Of a stretch of 54,496 nt of DNA, positions 10,109-47,274 are shown piece after piece; position 1 is the stretch's first letter, and each line of letters begins with the position of its first letter. The translations under genes were made by a program, and so were the position numbers. Below the pieces are notes generated by a model. It had not been told where the DNA came from. It saw only the letters and a program-made list of their open reading frames with translations, and did no database searches. This DNA is from Chthonomonas calidirosea (GTDB taxonomy: Bacteria > Armatimonadota > Fimbriimonadia > Fimbriimonadales > Fimbriimonadaceae), in the NCBI GenBank assembly GCA_945882415.1, contig CAMCWC010000017.1:1-54496 (forward strand), in the 5' to 3' direction.

Positions 10109-10562
10109 TCATGCGCTCTTTGGGCGATCGAAAGTCGTTGACCAACGCCATTCGTCCGAAGCCGTATACAAAGAACACCACGCCGAGCGCGATCATGCAA
10201 CGGTTCATGATCGGACCATCAGTGTTGAACTTCTGCTTCGTCACAATCCCGGCGAGCGCCATGAACGCAGACCACGTGAAGATCAGATAGAGGAACGGAC
10301 CTAGCCAGTGCGATTCGAACGAGCGTTCGAATTGACCGTGAACGAGGGCGGTCCAGCTTGTCGTAAGTCCGCAGCCTGGGCATGGGCGGTTAAGAATCAG
10401 CGCACTGGGGCAGGGCGAGAGGCCAAGTTGCTGGTGCGTGCCGTGCCCATCCGCGCTTGGATTTAGATAGAGCGCAATGCCCGTGACCGCAAGCCAACAG
10501 CCGAACCAGAAAGTCTGGAAAGTAATCGGGTTGCGCGAGTCCGTTGGTTCAAGCAACGGCAT
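10071..10562 (-). CDS. DUF2752 family membrane protein
   Basis: This 163-residue integral membrane protein has the DUF2752 hallmark CPGCGLTTSW (residues ~60-69) between hydrophobic segments; three or four helices are visible (FQTFWFGCWLAVTGIALYL, the FLYLIFTWSAFMALAGI stretch, CMIALGVVFFVYGFG). The family is uncharacterised. The paired Cys of the CPGCG motif could bind metal or form a disulfide, but this is inference. ATG 10562 lies inside the end of truB, 5 bases after GAGGTG, so it is translationally coupled as the last gene of the long minus-strand operon. Its 3' end overlaps the convergent desulfhydrase-like gene. Confidence 0.8.
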   Translation of the reverse strand: MPLLEPTDSRNPITFQTFWFGCWLAVTGIALYLNPSADGHGTHQQLGLSPCPSALILNRPCPGCGLTTSWTALVHGQFERSFESHWLGPFLYLIFTWSAFMALAGIVTKQKFNTDGPIMNRCMIALGVVFFVYGFGRMALVNDFRSPKERMIIENVRHQFGQK

Positions 10563-11421
10563 CCGGCACCTCGGCGGGAATCACGCATTCCGGCTGCAAC
10601 ATGTCACCCATGACGCGGGCGACGGAGAAAACATTGCCTCGGGGGTCCAATAGCCCCACGATGCTGCGTTCGGTGGGCACGGGAAGGCTGAGCTGCTTGC
10701 CCTGCCGAATGGCCGCCACTTCAATATCAGTGAGCTCCATGAGCTGCATTGGCGGTAGGGCATCTGCCAAAACGATCACGTGCTGCGGGCCGATTTCGGA
10801 CATTGGGATCGCCATTTCTTCGGTGAAACGCCCGACTCGGGTCCGCTTGAGGCCCACGAGGTGTGCGCCGCAGCCCATCGCTTGCCCGAGATCGTGCGCC
10901 AGCGAGCGAACATAGGTGCCGCCGGAGCAAATGATGCGGGCGGTGGCAACGTCGCCTTCCAGATCGAGGATAGAGAACTCCGTGATATGCACGGTGCGGG
11001 CTTCGCGCTCGATCGTTTGGCCCTGCCGCGCGAGTCGGTAGAGCGGCTGACCATTCACCTTTACCGCGCTGTACATCGGCGGGAACTGTTGAATCAGTCC
11101 GCGGAAAGCGGCCAGGTGAGTCTCGATTTCTGCGCCAAGGTTTTCCGGGAGCGGCTTCGGGTCCGACGGTTGCCCCTCAAGATCGTACGTGGAAGTCTCC
11201 ACACCAAAGCGAATCTTGGCGATGTACTCCTTAGGCTCAAGGGGGAGGTATTGAAGGAAACGAGTGGCAGAACCGATGGCGACCACAAGAAGGCCGGAGG
11301 CCATCGGGTCTAGCGTGCCAGCGTGGCCCACTCGTTTGGTTGAGAATCGCCGCCGCATTTGGTTCACGACATCGTGCGATGTCATTCCAAGCGGTTTGTT
11401 GATTAGGAGGATTCCAAACAC
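10549..11421 (-). CDS. truB: tRNA pseudouridine(55) synthase
   Basis: TruB converts U55 of the T-arm of tRNAs to pseudouridine. The 290-residue protein opens with FGILLINKPLGMTSHDVV and contains VGHAGTLDPMASGLL with the catalytic aspartate at about residue 38. It also has the TruB blocks YIAKIRFGVETSTYD, FPPMYSAVKVNGQPLYRLAR and CSGGTYVRSLAHDLG. A C-terminal PUA-like region follows (RQGKQLSLPVP). Length is typical. GTG 11421 is the start, inside the 3' end of nrnA (19-base overlap), which implies translational coupling. nrnA-truB adjacency is common in bacteria, often in the rbfA cluster. Confidence 0.96.
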   Translation of the reverse strand: MFGILLINKPLGMTSHDVVNQMRRRFSTKRVGHAGTLDPMASGLLVVAIGSATRFLQYLPLEPKEYIAKIRFGVETSTYDLEGQPSDPKPLPENLGAEIETHLAAFRGLIQQFPPMYSAVKVNGQPLYRLARQGQTIEREARTVHITEFSILDLEGDVATARIICSGGTYVRSLAHDLGQAMGCGAHLVGLKRTRVGRFTEEMAIPMSEIGPQHVIVLADALPPMQLMELTDIEVAAIRQGKQLSLPVPTERSIVGLLDPRGNVFSVARVMGDMLQPECVIPAEVPDAVA

Positions 11422-12374
11422 TTTTCAAGTTCGGCGACTAGTTGCGACTCGGCGGACTCGATGGTCCCTTCGAAGGTGCAGCCGGCGGCGTTTTTGTGTC
11501 CCCCACCCCCAAACTTGCGAGCTACCTGGGCCACGTCAAGATCGGAGCGAGAGCGAATGGAACACCTTACCTTTCCTGGGTTGGGTTCCCGGAAAATGGC
11601 CGCAATTCGGACGCAGTCGGTGAACAGCATTTCGTTCACAAAGCCTTCGGTGTCTTCGTCCGAAGCGTTAGCTAGTTTAAAGGCGGAGTTCGGGATGACG
11701 GTCCAGGCCAAAGAGCCGTTCATCGACATCTTCATCCCGTTGAGCGCATAGCCCAGGAGTCGGGTTGCGCTGAGCGGCTTGCGCTGGAAGACCTCTTCGC
11801 TGATGCGGTTCAGATTGCCGCCGTGCTCCAGTAGGAACGCGGCCATGCTGAGGGCTTCGGGGGTGGTGTTTCGGTAGCGGAAGGACCCGGTGTCGGTTAC
11901 GATTCCGGCGAGCAAGAGGGTGGAAATCTCGGGCGTGAAGTGGGCGTCGACTTGCTTCAGCAATCGGGCCAGGATGAGCGCTGCGGCGGGAGCACTGGTA
12001 TCGATGATCCGGATCTGACCGGGCATTTCGTGCGGCATGTGGTGATCGATCACCATCAGCGGAGCGCCGGTTTGGAAGTACGGAGCAACGGTTCCGAGTC
12101 GATCGATGGATTCCAAGTCGATCATTATCGCGAGATCGACCTCTGCAGCAATCGGCGTTTGGCGGACGCGGTTTACGCTGGGCAAGAATTGGAGATTGCG
12201 AGGGGCCGAGTTGTGGCAAAGAACCTCGTTGGCAATACCAAGCTGGTCCAAATAGTGCGAAAGCGCCAAGGCGCTACCGAGGGCGTCCCCGTCGGGATTT
12301 TGGTGGGTGCCGATCCGGACAGATTTGACTCCGTCGAGAGCGGACTTAAAGGCAGCGGCATCTGATTTGATCAC
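11403..12374 (-). CDS. nrnA: DHH-family bifunctional oligoribonuclease / pAp phosphatase
   Basis: NrnA degrades short RNA oligonucleotides and dephosphorylates 3'-phosphoadenosine 5'-phosphate in the cytosol. The 323-residue protein has the DHH metal motifs HQNPDGDALGSALAL (~23-37), IMIDLESIDR, and VIDHHMPHE, followed by a C-terminal DHHA1 domain with KFGGGGHKNAAGC. All the metal-binding Asp and His residues of the family appear intact. GTG 12374 is the start codon; an AGGGAG stands upstream but at an unusually long spacing. The gene is followed by overlapping truB and lies 27 bases after the DprE1-like gene in one minus-strand operon. Confidence 0.93.
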   Translation of the reverse strand: MIKSDAAAFKSALDGVKSVRIGTHQNPDGDALGSALALSHYLDQLGIANEVLCHNSAPRNLQFLPSVNRVRQTPIAAEVDLAIMIDLESIDRLGTVAPYFQTGAPLMVIDHHMPHEMPGQIRIIDTSAPAAALILARLLKQVDAHFTPEISTLLLAGIVTDTGSFRYRNTTPEALSMAAFLLEHGGNLNRISEEVFQRKPLSATRLLGYALNGMKMSMNGSLAWTVIPNSAFKLANASDEDTEGFVNEMLFTDCVRIAAIFREPNPGKVRCSIRSRSDLDVAQVARKFGGGGHKNAAGCTFEGTIESAESQLVAELEKCLESS

Positions 12375-12401: not shown

Positions 12402-13823
12402 TTACGGTCTGGCGTATTGTACACACTCATCAAGCCCAATCCGGCAACTCAACTGGGTCTTGAACCTGCGCTTGGGGTCCCAGTCGTCCCTTAGAGCGGT
12501 AAATCTCGCAATCGCCGCCTCGCCTAGGCTTCGTTGGGCTTGGGCTGGGGAGAGTAAACCGTCTTTGGCGAAATAGAAGCGGCCACCGGCGTTGAGGACG
12601 ACTTCGGCCATCTCGTTGTACAAATTGTTCAGCGCTCCGGCATTGCGCGGGGTTTGCCGGAAATCAAGCGCGAGGGAATAACCGTGGTCGAGGTAGCGCA
12701 GCCAGGTTTCGTCGGGGCGGTGCTTTTTAAGGACGACCAAGTACGGCTCTAATTTGTCGCTTTGCCAGCGGCGAGTCAGTTCGTTGAAAACGTTCTCAGC
12801 ATGGGCGGTGGGCACGATGGCTTGGAACTGGAGCAATCCGTTCGGCACGTAAGCTCTTTGCCAATTCGGTAGGTAATCCAGCGGAAAGTTGTACTGAACC
12901 AGGCTCATAACCTTTGGTGCGCCTTCGGATATTCGTGCGGCGTTGCTCTTTAGCGCCGATGCGAGTTTCATGCCTGGGCGGTTTGTGATCCGGCGAAGAT
13001 GCTTCCAAGCGGTGTCGCGATGTATCAGTCCTGCGAGCTTTCCTTCGATTATCTGATGTCGGAGGTCGAGGGTTTCGGGTTCGGAAGATTCGCCGTGCCA
13101 GGCGGCTTGGAAGACTCCGGAACCGTTCGTGAAGCCGTTGACCCAACTCACGGAATAATCCGCGTCGGCGAAGGTTTCGAAGAGTTCAAAGTGATCTGCC
13201 CAACTGTGCACTCGCCGTTGGACCACGCGGACGTTGCCGCTAGTGATTTTCTTGAGTCGAAACCGGACTTTGGTCACGATCCCAAGCAGACCGAGACCGC
13301 CATGGACGGCCCAGAATTCGGGCTGGGATGGCACGAGTTGTCTGACTTCGCCGCTTGCGAGCATGATTTCGACCATCTCGACGTGTTCGGCAAAGGTGCC
13401 GTGGGTCAGGTTGTTTTTCCCGTGAATGTTGGTCGAGACGGCCCCGGCTAGGGTCGGCTTCATCGTGCCGCTAACGACGTTGAACCACCAACCGTCTTGC
13501 AGTACGTACTGCCAAATGGCTTCCAACGTGGCCCCGCCTTCGGCTTCGATAACGCCTGTCTCTTTGTCCCAGGTGAGTACGCGGTTCATCCGGGCGAGGG
13601 AGATGGTTACCGATTCGAGCGGACTCGAGGTGTCTCCGTAAGACCTTCCGCTGCCGCGGAGCGTAATTGGGACGTTGAGTTCTTCCGCCAGAAGGACGAC
13701 GCTCCGAAGTTCATCGAGGCTGGTCGGTTCGAAGAGGTATCCGTCACCCGGCGAAAGGCCGCCGAAGCCGTCAAAGCGCCGGATTCGCGCGAGGTCTAGA
13801 TGCCCAGCCGCTGCATGATCCAA
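12402..13823 (-). CDS. dprE1: DprE1-like FAD-dependent decaprenylphosphoryl-ribose 2'-oxidase
   Basis: DprE1 oxidises the 2'-hydroxyl of polyprenyl-phosphoryl-ribose, the first half of its epimerisation to the arabinose form. The 473-residue protein has the FAD (PCMH) motifs RGSGRSYGDTS and SGTMKPTLAGAVSTNIHG, then GKNNLTHGTFAEHV, matching the mycobacterial GKN-x-H-GxFGNHV region. The C-terminal FAKDG supplies the lysine (Lys420) that aligns with catalytic Lys418 of M. tuberculosis. The position of Cys387, the benzothiazinone target, appears to be Ala385 (YSLALDF). TTG 13823 is the likely start, because the conserved RRFDGFGGL N-terminus needs it; it overlaps the end of the SDR gene by 28 bases. 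A generic sugar or alditol oxidase is the alternative, made unlikely by the neighbours. Confidence 0.85.
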   Translation of the reverse strand: MDHAAAGHLDLARIRRFDGFGGLSPGDGYLFEPTSLDELRSVVLLAEELNVPITLRGSGRSYGDTSSPLESVTISLARMNRVLTWDKETGVIEAEGGATLEAIWQYVLQDGWWFNVVSGTMKPTLAGAVSTNIHGKNNLTHGTFAEHVEMVEIMLASGEVRQLVPSQPEFWAVHGGLGLLGIVTKVRFRLKKITSGNVRVVQRRVHSWADHFELFETFADADYSVSWVNGFTNGSGVFQAAWHGESSEPETLDLRHQIIEGKLAGLIHRDTAWKHLRRITNRPGMKLASALKSNAARISEGAPKVMSLVQYNFPLDYLPNWQRAYVPNGLLQFQAIVPTAHAENVFNELTRRWQSDKLEPYLVVLKKHRPDETWLRYLDHGYSLALDFRQTPRNAGALNNLYNEMAEVVLNAGGRFYFAKDGLLSPAQAQRSLGEAAIARFTALRDDWDPKRRFKTQLSCRIGLDECVQYARP

Positions 13824-14527
13824 GACGGCAACCTCCGAATGATCGCAAAGATCAAGTGGTGTTTCGGTTCCAAGTAGTACTCACGTGAGCGAGTCGTTTT
13901 CGAGAGGATGATTCTCGCCGCGTCGTCTGCGGAAATGGCATTCTTAAAGCCTAGATGCCGGGTCATTTCCGTATCGACCGGACCTGGCTTCACGTTGATG
14001 ACAATCACGCCAAGCTTCGAAAGCCGATTTCGTAGGGCTTCCAGGAAAGTCGAAAGCGCGGCTTTGGAAGTGTTGTAAACCGGCTGTCCGGGACGCCCAC
14101 GGTCTCCGGCAACGCTGCCGATGCCGATGATCGTGCCGGTCTGGGAGCCTTGGAAGCGGATCGCGGCTTGGTTCAGCCAAGCAATGGCGCCGAGGACGTT
14201 GACGTTAATCGTCGAAATGTCCTTGTCGGTGTTGAACTCGGTCTTGCCGACCTCGGGCATGATGCCGGAGGCGTAGATGATGAGGTCCAATCCGCCCAGT
14301 TGTGCGGTGATTTGCTGGAATAGCTCGGGCACTTCGGCGAACTCGGTCACGTCGTGCGCGAAGGGAAGGACGAGGTTAGGAAATCGCGTGGCGAGTTCAT
14401 CGAGCCGGTCTTTCCGCCGGGCGATTGCGGCGACGCGGCAGCCCGAGGCCGCGAGTTGTTCGGCCAAGGCAAGTCCGATGCCCGAGGACGCGCCAACGAC
14501 GATCGCGGTGCGAAAGGTTTGTGACAC
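13796..14527 (-). CDS. dprE2: DprE2-like short-chain reductase (2-keto-pentofuranosyl-phosphoprenol reductase)
   Basis: This 243-residue classical short-chain dehydrogenase would reduce the 2-keto intermediate made by DprE1 to polyprenyl-phosphoryl-arabinose using NAD(P)H. The cofactor motif is VVGASSGIGLALAEQLAASG, NAG is replaced by YASG, and the catalytic Ser and YxxxK lie in GIGSVAGDRGRPGQPVYNTSK. A C-terminal extension (HHLIFAIIRRLPSWIMQRLGI) is hydrophobic, as in mycobacterial DprE2. GTG 14527 is the start, with AAGGAG 11 bases upstream inside the end of ubiA. SDRs are hard to assign by sequence alone; the call rests on its position between the UbiA and DprE1 genes. Confidence 0.8.
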   Translation of the reverse strand: MSQTFRTAIVVGASSGIGLALAEQLAASGCRVAAIARRKDRLDELATRFPNLVLPFAHDVTEFAEVPELFQQITAQLGGLDLIIYASGIMPEVGKTEFNTDKDISTINVNVLGAIAWLNQAAIRFQGSQTGTIIGIGSVAGDRGRPGQPVYNTSKAALSTFLEALRNRLSKLGVIVINVKPGPVDTEMTRHLGFKNAISADDAARIILSKTTRSREYYLEPKHHLIFAIIRRLPSWIMQRLGI

Positions 14528-14530
14528 CGT

Positions 14531-15445
14531 TTACTTCGCTCCTTGCGAAATTGAGCCTACTTTTAAGCCGAGGTCATTCAATCGCGGCGAAACCATCGCG
14601 AAGAGCGCAGTGAGGCCGAAAAGCACGACAGCCGTGATCATCGGGATGTCTTTCAAGAAGAGGTTCTCTGGCTCCGCGCCGTCGTTCTCGGTGAAGGTGA
14701 GGAACAGGAACCGGAACACCGCGAAGGCCACCCAGAGGTAGGTGAACTTCAGAAGAGGGTGGTCCATCGCCGTCTGGCTTTCGATGCAGTAGACGCCATA
14801 GCCAAGCAACGAGGCTGCAGCGCACACGACGACCGCGGTGTCCAGGAAGCGAAGGTTGTAGGCTCCCAAGCTGGTCCGCGTGGAACTGGCGTTATCGCCC
14901 ATGAGAATTCGTTCGCCTCGCCTCTTACCGAACCCGAGCATGAGGGCAAGGGAAAAGGTGCAGTAGAGAAGCCACGAGGACACTTCAACGTTCATCGCCG
15001 CCGCGCCGACTGCGGCTCGGAGGACGAATCCGGAAGACAGGCAGAAGACATCTGCGATCGGCTGGCTTTTGAGCACCAAGTTGTAGGCCGCTTGAATCGC
15101 GATGTACAAAACGATGATGATCGTTGCGAGCATCGGCAATAGGGTCAGCAGCCCGAAGGCAGCTGCGGTCAGAAGCACGGCCAGACCCAAGGCAATCGGT
15201 ACTTTCACCTCTCCCGAAGCAATGGGGCGGAACTTCTTTTTTGGGTGGAGTCGGTCCTGCGGCGCGTCTAGGGTGTCGTTGACGATGTAGGTCGCCGATC
15301 CGACTAAGCCGAAAATCAGGAAAGCGAGGAGGCTGAGTCGCCAGCCTTCGGGGTTGTTCAGCGGATCGGTGAAGAGGATCGCAGCAAAGACAACAAAGCC
15401 CTTGATCCACTGTTTCGGGCGTAACAGGCGGAAGTACGGGGCCAT
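14531..15445 (-). CDS. ubiA: UbiA-type polyprenyl-phosphate phosphoribosyltransferase (DPPR synthase-like)
   Basis: This 304-residue membrane enzyme belongs to the UbiA branch that moves 5-phosphoribose from PRPP to a polyprenyl phosphate, giving the precursor of polyprenyl-phosphoryl-ribose. The family start RPKQWIKGFVVFAA is present, with the Asp-rich active-site motif NDTLDAPQDRLHPKKKFRPI (about residues 56-75) and the second block YNLVLKSQPIADV followed by SSGFVLRAAVGA. About eight hydrophobic helices are visible. These features match mycobacterial Rv3806c rather than ubiquinone or haem prenyltransferases. ATG 15445 lies 36 bases after rmlD. The reading frames of dprE2 and dprE1 follow directly, which supports a single pathway. 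The phosphatase step (Rv3807c in mycobacteria) is not encoded nearby. Confidence 0.85.
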   Translation of the reverse strand: MAPYFRLLRPKQWIKGFVVFAAILFTDPLNNPEGWRLSLLAFLIFGLVGSATYIVNDTLDAPQDRLHPKKKFRPIASGEVKVPIALGLAVLLTAAAFGLLTLLPMLATIIIVLYIAIQAAYNLVLKSQPIADVFCLSSGFVLRAAVGAAAMNVEVSSWLLYCTFSLALMLGFGKRRGERILMGDNASSTRTSLGAYNLRFLDTAVVVCAAASLLGYGVYCIESQTAMDHPLLKFTYLWVAFAVFRFLFLTFTENDGAEPENLFLKDIPMITAVVLFGLTALFAMVSPRLNDLGLKVGSISQGAK

Positions 15446-15481: not shown

Positions 15482-16330
15482 CTAAGCGGTTGGCTCGGGC
15501 TGGTTGAGTCTATCCGTAAACCGGCGGAGGGCGGAATCGAGGTCCGGCATTTTCGGAATCCCGGCGGCGATGAGCTTCTCGTTGCTGAGTACCGAGTACT
15601 TCGGTCGCGCGGCCGGGGTTGGCCAGTCTTCGGTTTGAATCGGCGAGATGTCGGCATCGAGGATTCCGGCAGCGGACACGGCTCGCTTGGCAAAGTCGAA
15701 CCAAGACATCGGTTCATGACCGGTGGCGTGGTAGATGCCATCGGGCAGGTTTGCCTGAACGACATCGGCGATAGTTTGGGCGAGGTCCTCGGTGTAGGTC
15801 GGGCAACCGATCTGATCTGCGACCACGCGGAGTGGCTTGCCAGACGAAGCAACGCGGATCATGGTTTTCGGGAAGCAGGGGCCCTCGGCACCAAAGAGCC
15901 AACTCGTTCGCAAGATGATCGCGGGCAGGATGTTTCGTTCACCCGCGAGCTTGGTCCGACCGTACTCGTTTAGCGGGTTGGTCTCGTCGGTTTCGAGGTA
16001 CGGGCTCGTCTTCGATCCGTCAAAGACGAAGTCCGTGCTGATGTGGATCACACGTGCGTTTAGGTCGGCGGCGGCAGAGCTGAGGTAGGACGGCCCGAGA
16101 GCGTTGGCGTCGTACCCAGCTTGTTTCTCTTGCTCGGCAAGGTCCACCTTGGTGTACGCCGCGCAATTGATGATCCAGGTTGGGCGCCCAAATTCGCCCA
16201 TGCCGAGCTTGGCGATGTGCGTCGGATCGGCAATGTCGCACTCCGCCCGAGGTAAGCCGGTCGCTTTTTCGCCTAAGGCACGCAGAACGTCTTTCCCGAG
16301 CATTCCGCCCGCGCCGAGGACGAGGATCAT
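15482..16330 (-). CDS. rmlD: dTDP-4-dehydrorhamnose reductase
   Basis: RmlD reduces dTDP-4-keto-L-rhamnose to dTDP-L-rhamnose in the cytosol. The 282-residue extended SDR has the N-terminal cofactor motif LVLGAGGMLGKDV, NCAAYTKVDLAE, the STDFVFDG strand, and YGRTKLAGE carrying the catalytic Tyr and Lys. RTSWLFG and GCPTYTEDLA are further RmlD blocks. It overlaps the small membrane protein gene by 4 bases (ATGA). The other rhamnose genes, rmlB and rmlC, lie 20 kb away and rmlA is not in the window, so the pathway is split. Sitting next to the DprE-like trio, it may serve the same glycan. Confidence 0.93.
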   Translation of the reverse strand: MILVLGAGGMLGKDVLRALGEKATGLPRAECDIADPTHIAKLGMGEFGRPTWIINCAAYTKVDLAEQEKQAGYDANALGPSYLSSAAADLNARVIHISTDFVFDGSKTSPYLETDETNPLNEYGRTKLAGERNILPAIILRTSWLFGAEGPCFPKTMIRVASSGKPLRVVADQIGCPTYTEDLAQTIADVVQANLPDGIYHATGHEPMSWFDFAKRAVSAAGILDADISPIQTEDWPTPAARPKYSVLSNEKLIAAGIPKMPDLDSALRRFTDRLNQPEPTA

Positions 16331-16683
16331 CCGGCTTGCTCTTGCGCGGCTTTCTTCATCTTCAGATCCAGCACGAAGTACAAGATGATGAAGATTAGCG
16401 GAATCAACGGCGCAACGTAGTGCGCGGCGACCATAAATCGGGTCGTAATCGTTGTTCGGTAAGCGTATGAGTCAACGCTCGGATTTATGTAACGCCAGAA
16501 CCAGGTGAAGCCGAAGAAGAAGCCAACAACGAAAAGCACGAGGCTGATCCAACGCCACTTTGGCAAATCGCCCGAGTTCTTGAAAGAGATCCAGCCAAGA
16601 ATGAGCGAGAAGAATCCGAGCACCGAAAAGAGTGCCGGCATCATCAAAATTTGGGTTGAGTTCCATGCGACTTCGCCTGGCAT
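16327..16683 (-). CDS. Small integral membrane protein of unknown function
   Basis: This 118-residue protein has three strongly hydrophobic segments: ILMMPALFSVLGFFSLILGW, ISLVLFVVGFFFGFTWFW and YVAPLIPLIFIILYFVLDL. The last ends in a basic tail (KMKKAAQEQAG). No family is recognised. ATG 16683 is preferred over the TTG two codons upstream because a TACCCT hexamer ends exactly 6 bases before it, giving a leaderless start like others in the window. It lies between galE and rmlD and overlaps rmlD by 4 bases, so it is probably part of the same operon and may be a membrane helper of glycan synthesis, though nothing shows this directly. Confidence 0.7.
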   Translation of the reverse strand: MPGEVAWNSTQILMMPALFSVLGFFSLILGWISFKNSGDLPKWRWISLVLFVVGFFFGFTWFWRYINPSVDSYAYRTTITTRFMVAAHYVAPLIPLIFIILYFVLDLKMKKAAQEQAG

Positions 16684-16689
16684 CGCCAA

Positions 16690-16704: not shown

Positions 16705-17697
16705 TTAGGCGTGATCTTCGTAGCCGTTTGGATGCCGTGAATGCCATGCCCAAGCGTGCTCAATAATGGAGCGAAGGTCGGGATACTGCGGATTCCAATT
16801 CCAATCGGCTTTGACCTTTGCGCTGGAGCCGATCAAGCGGGCAGGGTCGCCCGGTCGACGGGGTCCAATCGTGTGCGGAACGGGGAGCCCAGTGACTTCC
16901 TCGATCGTTTGGATGACCTCCGCTACCGAATAGCCGTTGCCGTTGCCGAGGTTGTAAAAGCGCGAATCGCCGCCATCGCGCAGGTGGGTGATGGCAAGGG
17001 CGTGGGCTTGGGCTAGATCGACAACGTGGATGTAATCGCGAATGCAGGTGCCGTCTGGGGTGTCGTAGTCATTGCCAAAAATCGTGAGCGGCGGCTTATT
17101 TCCGGTTGCGGCGAAGATAGCGTTCGGGATGAGGTGGGCTTCGGGTCGGTGGTCTTCGCCGATGGCTCCATTGGGGTCCGCCCCGGCGGCATTGAAGTAG
17201 CGCAGGGCCACGCTTCGAAGGCCGTAAGCATGGTCGAAGTCCTTCAAGATCATCTCGACGGCGAGCTTAGTTTGGCCATAAGGGGATATCGGATTTTGGG
17301 GGTGGTCTTCGGTTAGTGGAATTCGCTGGGGCTCGCCAAAGGTTGCGCAAGTGGAGCTGAAGATGAATTTCTTTATTTCTCGCTCTCGCATGATTTCGAG
17401 GAGGGCAAGCACGGCCGAGGTGTTGTTCTTCCAATACTTGCCGGGCTCCGTCACGCTCTCGCCGACGTAGGTGTAGGCCGCAAAGTGCATCACCACGTCG
17501 ATCTCGGGGTGGGCGTCGAAGACGGCATTGAGATCGGCCTCGTTGCGTAGGTCACCTTTCACGAACGGTGAACCAGCGACGGCGGCTTCGTGACCGTATT
17601 CGAGGTTATCGAAAACGAGGTGTGGCCAGTCTTGATTGCGGAGCCATTGCGTCATGTGAGATCCGATGTATCCCGCGCCGCCCACTACCAAAACCAT
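16705..17697 (-). CDS. galE: UDP-glucose 4-epimerase
   Basis: GalE interconverts UDP-glucose and UDP-galactose (or the N-acetyl forms) in the cytosol. The 330-residue extended SDR begins VLVVGGAGYIGSHM and carries FAAYTYVGESVTEPGKYW, the catalytic Ser in SSTCATFGEP and YxxxK in YGQTKLAVE. LRYFNAAGADP, GTCIRDYIHVVDLA and YNLGNGNGYSV are GalE hallmarks. It heads a minus-strand operon of nine closely spaced or overlapping genes. A TAGCAT hexamer lies 6 bases upstream of the ATG, with no Shine-Dalgarno, and the divergent phosphodiesterase gene has the mirror arrangement. In the DprE context, the operon position suggests a role in surface glycan supply. Confidence 0.96.
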   Translation of the reverse strand: MVLVVGGAGYIGSHMTQWLRNQDWPHLVFDNLEYGHEAAVAGSPFVKGDLRNEADLNAVFDAHPEIDVVMHFAAYTYVGESVTEPGKYWKNNTSAVLALLEIMREREIKKFIFSSTCATFGEPQRIPLTEDHPQNPISPYGQTKLAVEMILKDFDHAYGLRSVALRYFNAAGADPNGAIGEDHRPEAHLIPNAIFAATGNKPPLTIFGNDYDTPDGTCIRDYIHVVDLAQAHALAITHLRDGGDSRFYNLGNGNGYSVAEVIQTIEEVTGLPVPHTIGPRRPGDPARLIGSSAKVKADWNWNPQYPDLRSIIEHAWAWHSRHPNGYEDHA

Positions 17698-28364: not shown

Positions 28365-30422
28365 CTAGTTCAAGTCCTCGGAATAGAACTCGGTGTTGGT
28401 GAAGACAACTCCGAGCAAGCGTGCGTGGGCGTGGCGGAGAAGCTCGATGCAGTACCGCATGAGGGTCTTGGTCGTTGCTCCGGGTTTCACAACGAAGACA
28501 ACGGTATCGACCGTCGCGGAAAGGCTCAATGCATCAGAGCGGGGAAGCATCGCGGGCGTGTCGAAGATGACGAGGTCGTACCGCTCAATCATTTCGCGAT
28601 ACATTTTTTGCATCGCGCCGCTGCCCAAGCCATCGGCCAGGCTAACTTCTCCGGACCCAGCCGTGATGACGTGCAGGCCTTCAATTTCAGCGCTCCGGGT
28701 CACGGTTCCGAGATCCTGTTGGTTAGAGAGCAGGTCGGAAAGTCCAGGTCCGCGCTCTAGGCTAAATCGGTCATGGATCGCGGGTCGGTGCATGTTTGCG
28801 TCCACCAAGAGGACCGATTTGCCGGTTCCCGCCATTGCGATGGCCAGGTTTGAGGCAACTTCCGACTTTCCTTCACCCGCTCCGGTACTCGTAATCATCA
28901 TGGATTTGAACGGATGCTCGGTGAGCGAGAAGAGAACGTTCGACCGAACGATTCGGTAGTTCTCCATCACCCGAGAGGGCAGAGCCTTCGACTTTCGGGC
29001 CGCCTTTCCGAAGGCTCGCGGCGGCACGTAGCCAAGGGTTGGTGCATTCGCAATTCGGTACGCCTGATCTAGCGTCGTGACCTTGTCCTCGAGGCGATCT
29101 CGAACAATTGTGATGATGAAAGCGACGACCAGTCCCGCAACGAGCGCAAAGCCGATGTAGAGCGGTGGATTTGGCTTGTTTCGCTTTGGCTCGGACGGCA
29201 ACTGAATGATTTCGACCGGGTTTCGGATCGAGTTCTCGTAGACCTTCAACTGTTGCGAGGACCGCGAAGTGTTATCAAGGTCTGCCTTCAGAAGTTCGAC
29301 TTGCCGGCGCAACCCAGAGATCTTGTCTCTAAGCTCGCTGTACTTGTTCAATCGTTCCCGAGCTTCGTCCCAAACTCGTTTTCGCTGGGTCACTCGTGCT
29401 TCGGCAGCTTTCATTCGCGCTTGCGACTCGGCAATTTTGTCGTCGTAAAGCTGCAGGGCTGGGTTGCGGACTACTCGCTGGTTATCCAGAACTTTAGGCA
29501 GACTCGCGATATACGATTCCTGCGACTTGACCTGAGCATCGATTTGTTTGAATTCGACGGCGCGGTCGTCAAAAATTTGTGAGACGCGATCTCGTTCGGA
29601 TTTCAGGTCGCTCAGCTTTTGGTTGGCGGCCTGGATTTGGTCAATATTCTTCTCGATCGTTTGGTTTGGAATCGTTTTTGGCAGCTTGTCCCGCTCGGAT
29701 TTGACTTGTTTGAGATATTCCGTTTCCGAATCAAATTCGGTGAGGGTGGCGTTGTATTCCTGTTCTGCTCGAATTTCAACCGCACTTCGGTCAACGGCTT
29801 CAGTCTCGCTCGGAGAAAGTTTGTTATCCAACAAGAACTTTCCAAGCTGGGTTTCAGCTTCGGCAAGGCTAGTCTTTGCCTTCTCCTGAAGACCATCTAA
29901 GAAGACGATGGCTTGTCGAAGTTCGGCACTGTTGCGGTCGACGACCAGGGTTTTGTAAGTCTCGGGCAGCTGGTCGGCAACTCGACGAGCGAGCTCGCCG
30001 TTTGACGACGTTACGGTGACTTCGATAACGTTCGTGAGTCCGACTTGGCGGGCGGAGACCTCCGGGTCGCCCGGCTCTTTTGGCGTAAGCGAGGCGTCGC
30101 GGCCGATGACGGTTTGGACCGCGTTGCTCACGACAACGCCGGATTGAATCTGTTCAAGCTGAGTGGGGATGTCCGTAACGATCGGCGCCGTGACCTTAAA
30201 GAGCGGGTCCTGGGTGTTGACCGGGGCGGCTTGCTGGCCCGAGCGACCTTCGACAACGATTCGCGTGGAGGACTGATAAGTCGGTTCAACAAGTAGGATC
30301 GCGGCGAGCCCGGCTCCGGCGGCGATGACAAGGGAAATGATGACGACCCAACGCTGGCGCTTCACCGCCTCCAAGAAATCTCGGAACGATGCATCCGTCG
30401 GTTGAGCTTTCACAACATCCAT
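28365..30422 (-). CDS. Polysaccharide copolymerase fused to tyrosine kinase (Wzc-like)
   Basis: This 685-residue protein controls chain length and export in Wzy-dependent polysaccharide systems. An N-terminal Wzz-like domain is bounded by two membrane helices (about 28-50, RWVVIISLVIAAGAGLAA, and about 425-445, YIGFALVAGLVVAF), with a long coiled-coil-rich periplasmic part between. The cytoplasmic BY-kinase domain has Walker A GAGEGKS (514-520), Walker A' VLLVDANMHRP and Walker B VIFDTP (Asp621). The C-terminus FTNTEFYSEDLN holds only one tyrosine, not the Tyr cluster of E. coli Wzc, so trans-phosphorylation at the tail may be reduced. It heads the minus-strand polysaccharide operon and is divergent from the exosortase gene. 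Confidence 0.92.
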   Translation of the reverse strand: MDVVKAQPTDASFRDFLEAVKRQRWVVIISLVIAAGAGLAAILLVEPTYQSSTRIVVEGRSGQQAAPVNTQDPLFKVTAPIVTDIPTQLEQIQSGVVVSNAVQTVIGRDASLTPKEPGDPEVSARQVGLTNVIEVTVTSSNGELARRVADQLPETYKTLVVDRNSAELRQAIVFLDGLQEKAKTSLAEAETQLGKFLLDNKLSPSETEAVDRSAVEIRAEQEYNATLTEFDSETEYLKQVKSERDKLPKTIPNQTIEKNIDQIQAANQKLSDLKSERDRVSQIFDDRAVEFKQIDAQVKSQESYIASLPKVLDNQRVVRNPALQLYDDKIAESQARMKAAEARVTQRKRVWDEARERLNKYSELRDKISGLRRQVELLKADLDNTSRSSQQLKVYENSIRNPVEIIQLPSEPKRNKPNPPLYIGFALVAGLVVAFIITIVRDRLEDKVTTLDQAYRIANAPTLGYVPPRAFGKAARKSKALPSRVMENYRIVRSNVLFSLTEHPFKSMMITSTGAGEGKSEVASNLAIAMAGTGKSVLLVDANMHRPAIHDRFSLERGPGLSDLLSNQQDLGTVTRSAEIEGLHVITAGSGEVSLADGLGSGAMQKMYREMIERYDLVIFDTPAMLPRSDALSLSATVDTVVFVVKPGATTKTLMRYCIELLRHAHARLLGVVFTNTEFYSEDLN

Positions 30423-30565: not shown

Positions 30566-31474
30566 ATGGCGAGTCAAGCAACCAATGTGGGTCCAAGTGC
30601 AACGGTGACCGAACCGGTAAAGGAAAAAACGGCGTCGGTCGATTGGCAGACCATCGTTAAATCTGAGGGGTTTCCGTGGGCGGTGGCGCTGACGGTAGCC
30701 ATCTGTGCCCTGTTCTCTGGGCTTCTGGCTGGTTTGCCGAGCCTCTGGTTCCGGTCCGAGTCGTACTACTCCCACGGCATTTTGGTGCCGATTATCTCGG
30801 GCTACATGTTGTGGACGCGCTGGCCTGAGCTAGAGAAGATCAATAAGAAGCCGGCATATTTGGCCGCGATTCTGCTCATACCCATCTTGTACATCACATG
30901 GGTGGCCGCAAGAACGAGCATGGCTTTCACCTTGTCCCTGTTGTTTATTGCAACCATCGCACTTGCGGTTTGGGCGATTGCAGGTTGGAAAATGCTGGTG
31001 GCCGCTCTCCCAGCGACCCTGTACTTGCTGTTTGGGCTTCCGGTTTGGAACTGGGTGATTGACCGATTTACTCAGCCAATGCAGGAGATTTCGGCCAAAG
31101 TTTCGTTCGAGCTACTGCGCGGCATGGGCTACCAGATGTACCGGGCGGACAGCGTCACGATCATGCTGGATCAGTTTGAAATGAACGTGGGTGCGCCGTG
31201 CAGTGGCTTGCGGCTCATGTTGTCGCTCATCGCGCTGATGGTGTTCTTTATGTACATCGCGAAGCTGCAATGGTGGGCAAACGCGTTTCTTGCCGTGTTC
31301 ATCATTCCGTTTGCAATTCTGATTAATGGAGTCCGAATCGCGATGATTGGCGTAGTTGGTAATACGTACGGCTACGATGCGGGCCACCAGTTCCACGATT
31401 ACAGCGGTTACATCAGCTTGGTGATCTGCTTCATCGTTCTACAAAAGGTTTGCCGCGCTCTGGGGTGGAAGTAA
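30566..31474 (+). CDS. Exosortase (EpsH/Xrt family)
   Basis: Exosortases are inner-membrane cysteine transpeptidases that recognise C-terminal sorting tails such as PEP-CTERM and process the proteins for the cell surface. This 302-residue protein has about eight helices and an intact catalytic triad: Cys212 in APCSGLRLML, Arg257 in NGVRIAMIG and His277 in FHDYSG. A soluble N-terminal stretch of ~35 residues precedes the first helix. The next gene, an EpsI-like partner, overlaps its stop codon (TAATG). No protein with a PEP-CTERM-like tail was found in the window, so the substrates are elsewhere. Linkage to a Wzx/Wzy polysaccharide cluster is the usual context for exosortases. Confidence 0.93.
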   Translation: MASQATNVGPSATVTEPVKEKTASVDWQTIVKSEGFPWAVALTVAICALFSGLLAGLPSLWFRSESYYSHGILVPIISGYMLWTRWPELEKINKKPAYLAAILLIPILYITWVAARTSMAFTLSLLFIATIALAVWAIAGWKMLVAALPATLYLLFGLPVWNWVIDRFTQPMQEISAKVSFELLRGMGYQMYRADSVTIMLDQFEMNVGAPCSGLRLMLSLIALMVFFMYIAKLQWWANAFLAVFIIPFAILINGVRIAMIGVVGNTYGYDAGHQFHDYSGYISLVICFIVLQKVCRALGWK

Positions 31475-32124
31475 TGAACAAAACTGGATTTATCGTCGTG
31501 ATCGCTTTGGTGGGTCTGACGGCGGTCGCCTCAACGCTTGCGCCGCGTCCGGTTGCAGCCAAGCGAACCGAATCCTGGCTTGAGGATCAAATCCCGGAGA
31601 AGATCGATGGTTTCGAGTACGTGCCCAGCGAGGACAATCCGAAGCAGAGCTACAAAATGGACAAGATGGTCTACGACACTCTGAACCCATCGGGCATCGT
31701 GTCTCGTGTCTATTCGAAGGGCGGAGAGCAATACGATGTCGTTCTCGTCAACAGCGATAACAGCGACAGCTTCCACGACCCGCGCGTTTGCTTCCAGTCC
31801 CAAGGTTCGGAACTGATCAACGAGCGTGGCGTGTCCGTGACCACAAGTACCGGCGAGAAAATACCGGTTTCGTTTGTCGAGACCAAAATGAACGGCGAGT
31901 CGCGACTCGCGGCTTACACTTACAAGGGGCCAGCGGGCTACAACCCGGCGCCACTTCGGTTGCTTTTCGACATCTTCAAGGCTGAGCTTTCGACCGGCAA
32001 GGTGCAGGAAGGGACTTTCTATCGAATCATCGCTCTCAGTCCAAGCACGGATGAGGAGCAGATGAAAAAATTCACCGCTTCCTTGCTGGAAGCGGTGAAT
32101 AAGCAGAGCAATGGAGTTCTGTAG
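31474..32124 (+). CDS. EpsI-like exosortase-associated protein (DUF3485)
   Basis: This 216-residue protein resembles the EpsI/DUF3485 proteins found next to, or fused to, exosortases; its exact role is unknown. The N-terminal helix GFIVVIALVGLTAVASTLAP anchors it in the membrane, with the rest outside. Family features visible are the RVCFQSQGSELI block (where many members have HxPxxCxxxxG) and the late KFTASLLEAVNK helix. ATG 31474 overlaps the exosortase stop. Its 3' end carries, on the opposite strand, a terminator hairpin for the convergent ugd gene. A separate EpsI-like gene, not a fusion, is present here. Confidence 0.82.
   Translation: MNKTGFIVVIALVGLTAVASTLAPRPVAAKRTESWLEDQIPEKIDGFEYVPSEDNPKQSYKMDKMVYDTLNPSGIVSRVYSKGGEQYDVVLVNSDNSDSFHDPRVCFQSQGSELINERGVSVTTSTGEKIPVSFVETKMNGESRLAAYTYKGPAGYNPAPLRLLFDIFKAELSTGKVQEGTFYRIIALSPSTDEEQMKKFTASLLEAVNKQSNGVL
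32065..32099 (-). terminator. Intrinsic terminator of ugd, located inside the EpsI-like coding region
   Basis: A perfect 12-bp inverted repeat (32071-32082 with 32088-32099, 5-base loop) is followed on the minus strand by six Ts (32070-32065). It begins 27 bases after the ugd stop at 32126 and lies wholly within the last codons of the convergent EpsI-like gene. Confidence 0.8.
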
Positions 32125-43875: not shown

Positions 43876-44952
43876 ATGAAAAAACTCGATCTGTACATCC
43901 TCCGCGAGATGGTGGTGCCATTTATCCTGGGCACTTTCCTCGTGGTGCTCATGTTCCAGATCAACGCCTACATGTTCATGGCGAAGACGTACAACCTGGA
44001 GAACGTGCCGTATACGGCCGTTTTGCAGTACATCCTGTTTCGAACTCCGGAGTTCATGAAGCAGACGTTGCCGGTGGGCGTTTCGCTCGGGGCGTCGCTT
44101 GCGATTACGAGGTTGGCGCGAGAGAGCGAGATCACGGCGATGAGGGCAGCAGGCACCCGATTGCTGCGGATTGTGCTTCCGGTCGCGATCTTCGGAATTT
44201 TTGTTTCGGTTGGAAACTTCTTCCTGGTTGAGAATTTGATTCCGGATTGGACTCGCCGAGCGAATGCGATCTTGATTCAGTCCGGCATCATGGGCCTCAG
44301 TCGGCCAACGATGAAGGCAAACTCGATCATCGAGCTGAATCAGTACACCGCATCGTTTGGAATCATCAAGCGAGTGGATGAGTACCGGTTTGACATCTCA
44401 AACATAACGCTATTTGAGCAAGTTGGGCCGAAGAAAGTTGGCATCATCACCGCCGAAACTGCCCGATACGACCGCGGCGTTTGGACGTTCAATAATGGCT
44501 ACTACGTCGAGATCGAGGGTGGGAACGTGATCGTGGCGAAGCCAAAGAAGAGTTTTCAGGTGAACCAGAAAATCGTGGTTGATGGACTCTTTGGCGCGGG
44601 GCAAGTTGCGGAGCGCACGATTGCCGAACTTCAGGCGTCAATTGACACGGCGAAAAAACTGGGTGCCGACCCAAAGAAGGAAGAGCTTGAGCTGCAATCG
44701 CGCTACAGCATTCCGGTGGCCTGCTTTGTTTTTGCCATCACCTCTCCCGTTTTCGCGCTCGTTTTCGCGCGGACGGGTGGATTTGTTGGCGTTATGGTCA
44801 GCTTCGTGGTCGTATTGTTGTACTTTAACGCCTACGTAGTCTCGACCGAGATCTTGAGTAAGTCTTCCGCTGTGCCGGTTTTGGTCGCGGCGTGGGCTCC
44901 CAATTTCATCTTCTTTGCCCTCGGTGTGCTTGCGATTTGGAGATTGGAGTGA
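43876..44952 (+). CDS. LptF/LptG family LPS-export permease
   Basis: This 358-residue permease belongs to the YjgP/YjgQ family that, with LptB, extracts LPS from the inner membrane for transport to the outer membrane. It starts MKKLDLYILREMVVPFILG, the family opening, and has the coupling helix ITRLARESEITAMRAAGTR facing the ATPase. A periplasmic jellyroll region (~140-250) is flanked by three helices on each side; the C-terminal helices include RYSIPVACFVFAITSP. Only one permease gene is present here, so the second subunit or LptB must be elsewhere, or a homodimer is used. GTGA overlap links it to the LptD gene. Confidence 0.9.
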   Translation: MKKLDLYILREMVVPFILGTFLVVLMFQINAYMFMAKTYNLENVPYTAVLQYILFRTPEFMKQTLPVGVSLGASLAITRLARESEITAMRAAGTRLLRIVLPVAIFGIFVSVGNFFLVENLIPDWTRRANAILIQSGIMGLSRPTMKANSIIELNQYTASFGIIKRVDEYRFDISNITLFEQVGPKKVGIITAETARYDRGVWTFNNGYYVEIEGGNVIVAKPKKSFQVNQKIVVDGLFGAGQVAERTIAELQASIDTAKKLGADPKKEELELQSRYSIPVACFVFAITSPVFALVFARTGGFVGVMVSFVVVLLYFNAYVVSTEILSKSSAVPVLVAAWAPNFIFFALGVLAIWRLE

Positions 44953-47243
44953 AGTGCGGCCGCGCCCTTTGCTTTGTCCTTGCGCTTTCTTCCTCACCAC
45001 TGGCAGCCGCCCAAGTGTTCGGGAGTTACGAACTCCTTCGGGCTGGCTATCCGCTTATCAACCGTGACCCAAACCGCGCGCCGGTGAATCTGCCGGGTGG
45101 TAGCTCAACTGAACCTGCCGCACCCGCGCGGACTGACGATCGCGAGCTTGAGATCATCCGCGCTGGGTCGTTGAACCGTGACGGCAAAAAGATTCAGATC
45201 ACGGGTGGTACGGAGGTTTTGTATCGCGGCTATCGCTGTTTTGCCGACCAGATTGACGGCGATCTGGACACGGAAGTTTTCGACCTAAGCGGCAACGTAA
45301 AGATCATCGGTGCGGACGCGGTTGTGTATGGCGACAAAGTCCGGTTCAACTTCAAAAACGAAAGCTACGTGTCGGAGCGTGGCGGCGGGATGCTCCGACC
45401 TTCACTCTTGAAGGGTGCGGTGACCGACAATGTGTACATTTCCTCCGTCGCAGCCGACGGGACGGAGCGGGAGAATCACTTCAAAGAGGGCGATTTCACG
45501 ACCTGCAGTTTGGGGGACCATTCGCATTACGAGATCGAATCTGCCGACACGGTCGTGCGGACAAGCAAACGGATCATTTTCCGAAAAGCGCGGATTCGAT
45601 TCTTCGGCAAAACGATCATCACGATTCCGTTCCTCTCGATCCCGATCGAGGATCAGCAGTCGCGATACACGCCGGACGTGGGCCAGAGCCGTGACGAGGG
45701 CTATTACGTCAAGAGTCGCTTTGGGCTTTCGGCCTCCGACCGAATGGCAACGGACCTGCGCGTGGATTACATGTCTAAGTTCGGGCCGGCGCTTGGGACT
45801 GACTATGCCTATGCAAACGGCAAGATGGACGGCCTTACGCAGATCTACACCGTATTAGGCGCGGTGGGAACGCTGACGATGAAGAATCAACACCGCCAAC
45901 AGCTGGGAAGCGGCGAGATTTCGATTCAAAACGACTATCAGCGGAACAACTATCTCACTTCTCCAGGATCGACCCTCTTCAATACCAACGCCCAGTACAA
46001 CCTCCGATCTCAAACTGCAAACACGAACCTCAATTTCCAAAGGAACCGGAGTGAGTTCGGCGAGAGTGTTTCGGAAACGGAAGTCATTTCTATCAGCGAT
46101 GACCGGAATATTGGAGCGCTTCAAACTTCAAGTAATTTGAGCTATTCGGTCAACCGCAACGCGTATGGAGATTCAAACTCCTTTGAATCTAAACAACTAG
46201 ACGTTAGGTTGCGCGCAAACCAGAACCTCCCGTTTGCGAACGCTGTGTTGGAGTATCAGCGGCTTGTGCCGGTTGGAGACAGTGTTGGTAGCTTTGGAAC
46301 AGCGGACCGGACGCCGGTCCTTACGTTGACTTCTGACGCATCCAAGATTCTTGGGAAACGACAGGGACTCGCACTTCCGTTTCGTACAAGCTTGTCTATC
46401 GGTGAGTTCGGCGGACTACAAGGATCGCGAGTGACGCGAAGCATTTTTGATTGGACGCTCAACAAAAGCTCTGGCGGCCGCTCACGCTTGAGCTTCGACT
46501 ATTCAAGCGTTTTCAAGCAGTCGATGTACTCGGATGACACCGCGCAGTACGTCGTCGGCGCAGGTTGGAACGCGGCATACAAGCTAGGCGGCGATACCTC
46601 GGCAAACTTGCGCTACAACTACTTACGTCCGGAGGGGTACACGCCGCTGGCACAGGACCGGACCGGCCGCACCCACACTTCGACGTTCGACGTCTCGACC
46701 CGTCCCTTGAGAACCTTCTTGGTGGGAGCGCAAACCGGCTTTGACTTCAATCAGTCGAAGCAGAGCGACATCGGCTGGCAGCAATTCAACTTGCGCACGG
46801 AATACCGCCCTCGGGACTATCTCAACTTTCGAACGTTGACCACCTACGACACGATCTCGCAGAACTGGAGCAGTGTCCGGCTTGATTTCACGTACCAACC
46901 GGGCGCGACCTTTGTAACCCTCGGTGCCCGATACGACGGCTTTCAGAAGCGATGGTCGAATGCAAATCTGTACTTAGCCAACTTGAAGTGGGGCCGGACG
47001 CGCGTTGGAGCCGTGCTTTCTTACAACGGCTTCACCAAGGAAATTGATGCGGCCCAGTACAACGCCGTCTACGATTTGCACTGTTGGGAGCTCGTTCTGA
47101 GCCTTTCGGAATACAAAACTGGATTCCGCCCCGGCCGTGAAGTCCAGGTGTTTTTCCGGCTGAAGGCGTTCCCGACGGACTTGCCGTTTGGCATTGGTCG
47201 CCGCGGACAATCCATCGGTTCAAACATCGGCTTCAACAACTAA
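44949..47243 (+). CDS. lptD: LPS-assembly outer-membrane protein LptD-like
   Basis: LptD forms the outer-membrane beta-barrel that inserts LPS into the outer leaflet. The 764-residue product has a signal peptide (CGRALCFVLALSSSPLAAAQ), an OstA/LptA-like N-terminal domain (about 55-170, with KKIQITGGTEVLYRGYRCFA, DLSGNVKII and YGDKVRFNF), then a long barrel region of alternating strands to a C-terminal end. The GTG 44949 start overlaps the permease stop and gives the signal peptide; an open frame from 44892 is rejected. The usual LptD cysteines are few: one in TTCSLGD and one in LHCWELV. Identity as LptD rests on domain order and the permease neighbour. Confidence 0.85.
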   Translation: MKCGRALCFVLALSSSPLAAAQVFGSYELLRAGYPLINRDPNRAPVNLPGGSSTEPAAPARTDDRELEIIRAGSLNRDGKKIQITGGTEVLYRGYRCFADQIDGDLDTEVFDLSGNVKIIGADAVVYGDKVRFNFKNESYVSERGGGMLRPSLLKGAVTDNVYISSVAADGTERENHFKEGDFTTCSLGDHSHYEIESADTVVRTSKRIIFRKARIRFFGKTIITIPFLSIPIEDQQSRYTPDVGQSRDEGYYVKSRFGLSASDRMATDLRVDYMSKFGPALGTDYAYANGKMDGLTQIYTVLGAVGTLTMKNQHRQQLGSGEISIQNDYQRNNYLTSPGSTLFNTNAQYNLRSQTANTNLNFQRNRSEFGESVSETEVISISDDRNIGALQTSSNLSYSVNRNAYGDSNSFESKQLDVRLRANQNLPFANAVLEYQRLVPVGDSVGSFGTADRTPVLTLTSDASKILGKRQGLALPFRTSLSIGEFGGLQGSRVTRSIFDWTLNKSSGGRSRLSFDYSSVFKQSMYSDDTAQYVVGAGWNAAYKLGGDTSANLRYNYLRPEGYTPLAQDRTGRTHTSTFDVSTRPLRTFLVGAQTGFDFNQSKQSDIGWQQFNLRTEYRPRDYLNFRTLTTYDTISQNWSSVRLDFTYQPGATFVTLGARYDGFQKRWSNANLYLANLKWGRTRVGAVLSYNGFTKEIDAAQYNAVYDLHCWELVLSLSEYKTGFRPGREVQVFFRLKAFPTDLPFGIGRRGQSIGSNIGFNN

Positions 47244-47261
47244 GGGCCGTCCGGGCAGATT

Positions 47262-47267
47262 AAACTG
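47262..47267 (+). promoter_or_regulatory. Leaderless promoter -10 TAAACT of the GT-C-like gene
   Basis: TAAACT ends 7 bases before ATG 47275, and no Shine-Dalgarno lies between. This decides the start among in-frame candidates. Confidence 0.55.
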
Positions 47268-47274
47268 TCGGGCA

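Follow-up and report, generated by a model that had tools for sequence, protein, structure and literature searches.

A putative polyprenyl-phosphate pentofuranose pathway in Chthonomonas calidirosea and the distribution of its enzymes across Armatimonadota

The formation of D-arabinofuranose by the route of decaprenylphosphoryl-5-phosphoribose (DPPR) synthase and the DprE enzymes is known in mycobacteria and has been proposed for the pilin of P. aeruginosa. A general pentofuranose system has also been described, in which DprE1/DprE2 homologues accompany glycans containing arabinofuranose (Kelly et al., 2024; PMC11127046). Here, we analyze a gene trio of this kind in Chthonomonas calidirosea (Fimbriimonadaceae, Armatimonadota), which encodes a DPPR synthase of the UbiA family, a short-chain dehydrogenase/reductase (SDR) and a DprE1-like flavin adenine dinucleotide (FAD) oxidase. 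The analyzed stretch, called the window below, is the whole contig CAMCWC010000017.1 (our C17; 54,496 nucleotides) of assembly GCA_945882415.1, a genome of 3.36 Mb in 38 contigs that is 99% complete. Judging from the protein sequences, the trio very probably makes polyprenyl-phosphate-linked D-arabinofuranose.

An earlier note on this DNA had pointed to the trio as lying outside Actinobacteria. This is not a novelty, since plasmid records contain the run UbiA-GtrA-oxidase-SDR in Ruegeria and, next to nodABC, in Sinorhizobium, and a cyanobacterium has UbiA-DprE1-SDR. In the literature searched, we found no paper naming both DPPR synthase and Armatimonadota. New here are the near-universality of the synthase in the phylum, a second type of oxidase/SDR pair (type B), the synteny that locates a flippase candidate, and a candidate glycosyltransferase of the GT-C fold. 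The envelope of Armatimonadota is almost uncharacterised, and if the pathway is real, a lipid-linked arabinose or ribose donor associated with mycobacteria would belong to the core equipment of an entire diderm phylum, and pentofuranose would be expected in its surface glycans.

The three consecutive genes announced in the earlier note are present as minus-strand open reading frames (ORFs) that fill exactly positions 12402-15445 (Table 1), in the order ubiA, SDR and dprE1-like, with a gap of 3 bp between the first two and an overlap of 28 bp between the last two. The identification of UbiA as DPPR-synthase-like is well founded: the protein scores 236.9 bits (E 3e-70) against NF008977, the decaprenyl-phosphate phosphoribosyltransferase family, and passes the curated cut-off of 234, and its best match in the PDB is the mycobacterial synthase 8j8j (E 7e-32). 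The motifs ND..D...D..H..K..RP.A.G and KR..E are invariant or nearly so in 43 rows from the phylum and in the references, and are absent from the genome's two other UbiA-family proteins, which served as outgroup. In the tree the protein clusters with Rv3806c and with the DPPR synthases of Nocardia and cyanobacteria and not with quinone or haem prenyltransferases, the split from the haem- and quinone-type UbiAs of its own genome being supported by 95/98, with very long branches for both outgroup proteins. The enzyme is thus predicted to transfer ribose 5-phosphate from phosphoribosyl pyrophosphate (PRPP) onto polyprenyl phosphate.

The DprE1 homologues of Armatimonadota fall into two score classes, type A with more than 425 bits and type B, to which the window's oxidase belongs, with about 210-305 bits. 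Against NF053785 (DprE1) this oxidase scores 231 bits in a full-length match, compared with 62 bits, mostly from the FAD domain, for the next family, and its best PDB match is DprE1 (E 7e-40). It was aligned with 22 type B and 15 type A rows and with rhizobial, Ruegeria and cyanobacterial proteins, using the residue numbering of M. tuberculosis DprE1. Tyr60, His132, Lys134, Gln334, Lys367, Asp389, Tyr415 and Lys418 are unchanged in the window protein and every aligned relative, and so is Gln336 in the window protein, the 22 type B rows and all other rows but one, so that the call of a DprE1-like oxidase is backed by all tested active-site residues except Tyr314. The feared grouping with unrelated sugar oxidases did not appear either; the protein stands with DprE1 relatives, and a split of 100/100 separates it from the lactone-oxidase-like (TIGR01679-like) enzymes of its own genome and of its relatives. 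At position 387 the window protein, 22 of 22 type B rows and 14 of the 15 type A rows have Ala in place of Cys, as do four proteins from rhizobia, Ruegeria and cyanobacteria. Cys387 is the covalent target of benzothiazinones and is not known to be required for catalysis; because it is replaced, insensitivity to these compounds is predicted and not lost activity. Type B would then be a natural and independent variant of the tuberculosis drug target DprE1 that does without the cysteine attacked by benzothiazinones.

The SDR of the trio, correctly noted earlier, is encoded between ubiA and the oxidase gene, and its best NCBIfam family is NF005489/PRK07102 (172 bits), the cut-off of which is passed by the SDRs in DprE2 position of Ruegeria, Rhizobium and the Sinorhizobium nod-cluster trio. 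About 60 loci were read, and in nearly all of them an SDR gene adjoins that of the DprE1 homologue, one of the two genes being unseen in L119 and, owing to contig or locus ends, in L014 and others. In type A, as in mycobacteria, the DprE1 gene comes first and the SDR gene second; in type B, which is a single clade (94/95), this arrangement is reversed. Of the 85 genomes in the window's family, type A is encoded in 14, type B in 66 (in four of them as fragments only, which makes their type less sure), neither type in five and both types in none. If the types were distributed independently, some 11 genomes with both would have been expected, a figure that treats these related genomes as independent. 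The two types substitute for each other, and the direction of this result is clear; as they replace one another without overlap in one family, a single shared role is suggested. Oxidase and SDR genes adjoin ubiA repeatedly and in differing gene orders, namely in the Armatimonadota families f1 and f13, in Alphaproteobacteria and in Cyanobacteria.

In the proposed pathway UbiA would convert PRPP to polyprenyl-phosphate-ribose 5-phosphate, and a phosphatase, with the HAD half of a YqeG~GtrA fusion protein and three PAP2 proteins as candidates, would remove the 5'-phosphate. The oxidase and the SDR would then invert C2 via a 2-keto intermediate to polyprenyl-phosphate-arabinofuranose, a step for which the sequences argue strongly. 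The GtrA half of the fusion, encoded on contig 4, may move the donor to the periplasm or help to do so, as synteny suggests, and a GT-C enzyme, possibly the orphan protein of Table 1, might transfer the sugar to a glycan or protein of the envelope. The polyprenyl-phosphate pentose donor put forward in the earlier note stands, as the trees of UbiA and of the oxidase both came out in its favor; the pathway is phylum-wide and not local.

Several observations weigh against the proposed pathway. The oxidase misses the equivalog cut-off of NF053785 (500 bits), for which reason we name it DprE1-like, type B; the SDR misses the cut-off of its best family (267 bits) and, with 106 bits, the equivalog cut-off of the DprE2 family NF053786 (250 bits); Tyr314 is Asn in the window's oxidase, Ala, Ser, Asn or Gln across type B, and Phe in type A; and families f2-f4 have UbiA without DprE1, f2 and f3 together with GtrA, so that lipid-linked ribose itself could be the end donor there. 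The distribution bears on a first alternative, in which the ancestral role throughout the phylum is ribofuranosylation and the DprE1/SDR pair is an addition by which some classes diversify the sugar. With presence called at E<=1e-30 for the synthase (NF008977) and at E<=1e-35 for DprE1, the synthase occurs in 188 of 194 good Armatimonadota genomes and DprE1 in 111, and in f2 and f3 UbiA-GtrA lies in an exosortase operon lacking DprE1. On the other hand, the trio is contiguous in the window, and an epimerase of more distant relationship might have gone unnoticed in f2-f4. We regard such an ancestral role as quite possible, if on balance doubtful; it is compatible with our preferred reading, as the product in the window would still be arabinose. 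Because the entry enzyme is found in nearly every genome of the phylum, an uncharacterised sugar at the cell surface seems to belong to the basic traits of Armatimonadota.

Two side observations concern related gene sets. In the UbiA-GtrA-exosortase-EpsI runs of f2 and f3 (L064, L066, L067) the gene immediately upstream of UbiA, read in the same direction, encodes an extended-SDR epimerase, and a ribose or xylose donor in place of arabinose is possible there. Furthermore, a Haloterrigena plasmid (L155) carries a haloarchaeal DPPR-synthase homologue near an epimerase and genes of the GT-39/dolichyl-phosphate-mannose transferase type, hinting at a similar donor in archaea.

According to a second alternative, the lipid-linked sugar is right and the type B pair yields another pentofuranose, either by acting at C3 (xylofuranose) or by merely interconverting forms of ribose. 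The separate clade of type B, the replaced Tyr314 and the distance of the window's SDR from mycobacterial DprE2 fit this idea, and in Citrobacter O2 another epimerase makes xylofuranose from the same precursor (PMC11127046). However, this known xylofuranose system uses a GalE-like epimerase and not a DprE1 flavoenzyme, the catalytic residues of the oxidase are kept, and the exchange of types A and B within one family suggests a common role, which leaves the second alternative improbable. That oxidase and SDR belong to unrelated sugar metabolism, as an aldonolactone or polyol oxidase and a generic SDR that merely lie beside ubiA, would agree with the scores below the equivalog cut-offs and with Pfam seeing FAD_binding_4 and adh_short only, but is very improbable in view of the split from TIGR01679-like oxidases, the near-universal pairing of SDR and DprE1 and the repeated adjacency to ubiA.

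For the arabinofuranose donor, the flippase candidate was identified because the ubiA-linked gtrA of the sister family f5 is syntenic with a fused gtrA in the window's family. A GtrA-family gene lies directly beside ubiA in families f2, f3, f5 and f19 (PF04138 over its cut-off in those checked), followed by an exosortase and an EpsI-like gene in f2, f3 and f19. All five f5 loci read are arranged as mltG-yqeG-ubiA-gtrA-aroE(-sua5), other families have mltG-yqeG(-aroE), and the window's family has mltG-[yqeG then gtrA]-aroE-sua5 in six relatives read, G142 and G143 excepted, and in the own genome, where yqeG and gtrA are fused. In most genomes of this family the fusion is matched over the entire length of the query, and apart from it no GtrA domain was found in the genome of C. 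calidirosea, which was searched family by family. On the most economical reading, which infers the direction of change, ubiA was excised from mltG-yqeG-ubiA-gtrA-aroE and moved beside SDR-dprE1, and yqeG and gtrA were joined. The GtrA half is thus a probable flippase candidate located outside the window. GtrA proteins, including Rv3789 of the mycobacterial pathway, have been discussed as lipid-sugar flippases or anchors (PMC7389260).

G142 and G143 (loci L201 and L202; 1.5 Mb, 97% complete, window's family) have neither UbiA, DprE1 and the GtrA half nor the orphan GT-C, and represent a reduced lineage that lost all four. They keep yqeG without gtrA, as expected if GtrA serves the lost pathway and YqeG is independent of it. 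A phosphatase role of the YqeG half is conceivable, since B. subtilis YqeG has been reported among minor 5'-nucleotidases (PMC5080769). As a dedicated DPPR phosphatase it is a weakened candidate, because mltG-yqeG-aroE is a backbone of the phylum that occurs without ubiA and because yqeG outlived ubiA in G142 and G143. A genome search along the lines of the earlier note returned three PAP2 proteins as alternative phosphatase candidates; arabinofuranosyltransferases of the EmbA/B/C family (PF04602) were found in 0 of 291 genomes, with the Corynebacterium positive control detected, so that arabinogalactan or a similar polymer is not implied.

Across 20-kb loci no GT-C gene is shared next to the trio. 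A candidate user of the lipid-linked pentofuranose is an orphan GT-C protein, encoded next to Lpt genes in single copy and without Pfam or NCBIfam assignment; 33 kb separate it from the trio in the window, and none of the other genomes read has it within 10 kb. It occurs in 188 of the 194 good genomes. The same genome encodes three further PMT_2-like GT-C proteins, and the one of these that served as distribution control, an ArnT-like protein, is patchier (151/194). Six good genomes lack UbiA and six lack the orphan, and the two sets have G142, G143 and G190 in common (P 3e-4, phylogeny ignored). The AlphaFold model of the orphan adopts a GT-C fold (mean predicted local distance difference test score, pLDDT, 93.3), with ArnT (6.5e-7) and mycobacterial AftA (1.8e-6) as top Foldseek matches. 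In VIA-align many GT-C enzymes score alike against it, AftB, AftD and Emb no better than other GT-C folds, so the modelled fold alone does not decide specificity, and as a pentofuranose transferase the protein is a candidate and no more. A contig labelled Methanoregulaceae archaeon (L311) carries a GT-C of the Fimbriimonadaceae type and is most likely a mis-binned or mislabelled assembly.

Taken further, and only tentatively, nearly all Armatimonadota might attach pentofuranose, supplied by a polyprenyl-phosphate donor, to a core glycan of the envelope by means of a phylum-specific set. This set would comprise a stand-alone DPPR synthase, a divergent oxidase/SDR pair interchangeable with canonical DprE1/DprE2, the YqeG~GtrA fusion (perhaps phosphatase and flippase) left behind when ubiA moved out of its ancestral cluster, and the orphan GT-C as founder of a new pentofuranosyltransferase family. 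The GtrA fusion and the orphan GT-C provide a defined candidate set for the flippase and transferase steps.

The spacing of the genes suggests that the trio and its neighbors are co-transcribed. The operon with galE and rmlD assumed earlier is right insofar as both genes lie upstream on the same strand; they are not conserved partners and were rejected as such, because UbiA-SDR-DprE1 occurs in other genera without them. An rmlD-like gene adjoins ubiA in L073, L074, L075 and L096, and this adjacency recurs in families f12-f14. The small membrane ORF between galE and rmlD recurs in the closest relative only. The description of the host as a diderm with lipopolysaccharide transport genes agrees with LptF/G on the same contig, which also carries glycosyltransferases and heptose-type SIS/HAD proteins. 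Downstream of LptF/G, a 783-aa ORF (44892-47243, +) without Pfam match resembles, by eye, a divergent outer-membrane protein of the LptD/OstA type, and a Wzz/AAA protein is encoded at 28365-30422 near the plus-strand exosortase/EpsI-like pair (30566-32124).

Table 1. Positions of the trio, of the candidate partners and of neighboring genes (window coordinates unless a contig is given)
Feature	Coordinates	Strand	Length	Basis or remark
ubiA-family DPPR synthase (predicted: PRPP to polyprenyl-phosphate-ribose 5-phosphate)	14531-15445	-	304 aa	NF008977, PDB 8j8j, tree, motifs
SDR, putative DprE2-like 2-keto reductase of the type B pair	13796-14527	-	243 aa	NF005489/PRK07102 best; DprE1 adjacency
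DprE1-like FAD oxidase (type B), putative polyprenyl-phosphate-ribose 2'-oxidase	12402-13823	-	473 aa	NF053785, active site, tree
Orphan GT-C glycosyltransferase, candidate user of lipid-linked pentofuranose	47188-49203	+	671 aa	Distribution, fold
YqeG-like HAD phosphatase fused in frame to GtrA membrane domain	C4:75738-76796 (L147:886-1944)			Own genome, outside the window
rmlD, dTDP-4-dehydrorhamnose reductase	15482-16330	-		TIGR01214 271 bits (cut-off 224); upstream neighbor, not core
Orphan membrane ORF	16327-16689	-	120 aa	Between galE and rmlD; no family assigned
galE, UDP-glucose 4-epimerase	16705-17697	-		TIGR01179 419 bits (cut-off 262); upstream neighbor, not core
DHH/NrnA-like gene	11403-12374	-		Downstream of the trio
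truB-like ORF	10549-11421	-		Downstream of the trio; assigned by eye
Exosortase (PF09721)	30566-31474	+		Amid polysaccharide genes
EpsI-type DUF3485 protein	31450-32124	+		Paired with the exosortase
LptF/G	43876-44952			Lipopolysaccharide transport gene on the same contig

Compared with the mycobacterial pathway to decaprenylphosphoryl-arabinose (Rv3806c, Rv3807c, DprE1 Rv3790, DprE2 Rv3791 and the GtrA protein Rv3789), the system of C. calidirosea shares the DPPR synthase, a DprE1-like oxidase with kept active site, an SDR reductase and a GtrA-family protein. It differs in the SDR gene preceding the oxidase gene, in the type B clade with Ala at position 387, in a remote locus for the flippase candidate, which is joined to YqeG, in the absence of the EmbA/B/C family from 291 genomes, and in a diderm host with Lpt genes. 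The alphaproteobacterial trios of the Sinorhizobium nod-cluster plasmid, Ruegeria and Rhizobium likewise encode UbiA, GtrA, FAD oxidase and SDR together, but there UbiA is long (NF006088; a HAD-UbiA fusion in Ruegeria) and the order is UbiA-GtrA-DprE1-SDR, whereas in the window UbiA is unfused, a fusion of HAD and GtrA is encoded at another locus and the SDR gene precedes that of the oxidase. With the three-component pentofuranose systems of Citrobacter youngae O1/O2 (PMC11127046) the system has in common the logic of a polyprenyl-phosphoribose synthase, an optional epimerase and, as candidates, a flippase and a GT-C enzyme. Here, however, the synthase gene adjoins the genes of a DprE1-type epimerase, a GtrA protein and not a MATE protein is the flippase candidate, the GT-C candidate belongs to an orphan family, and the synthase is near-universal in the phylum and not serotype-specific.

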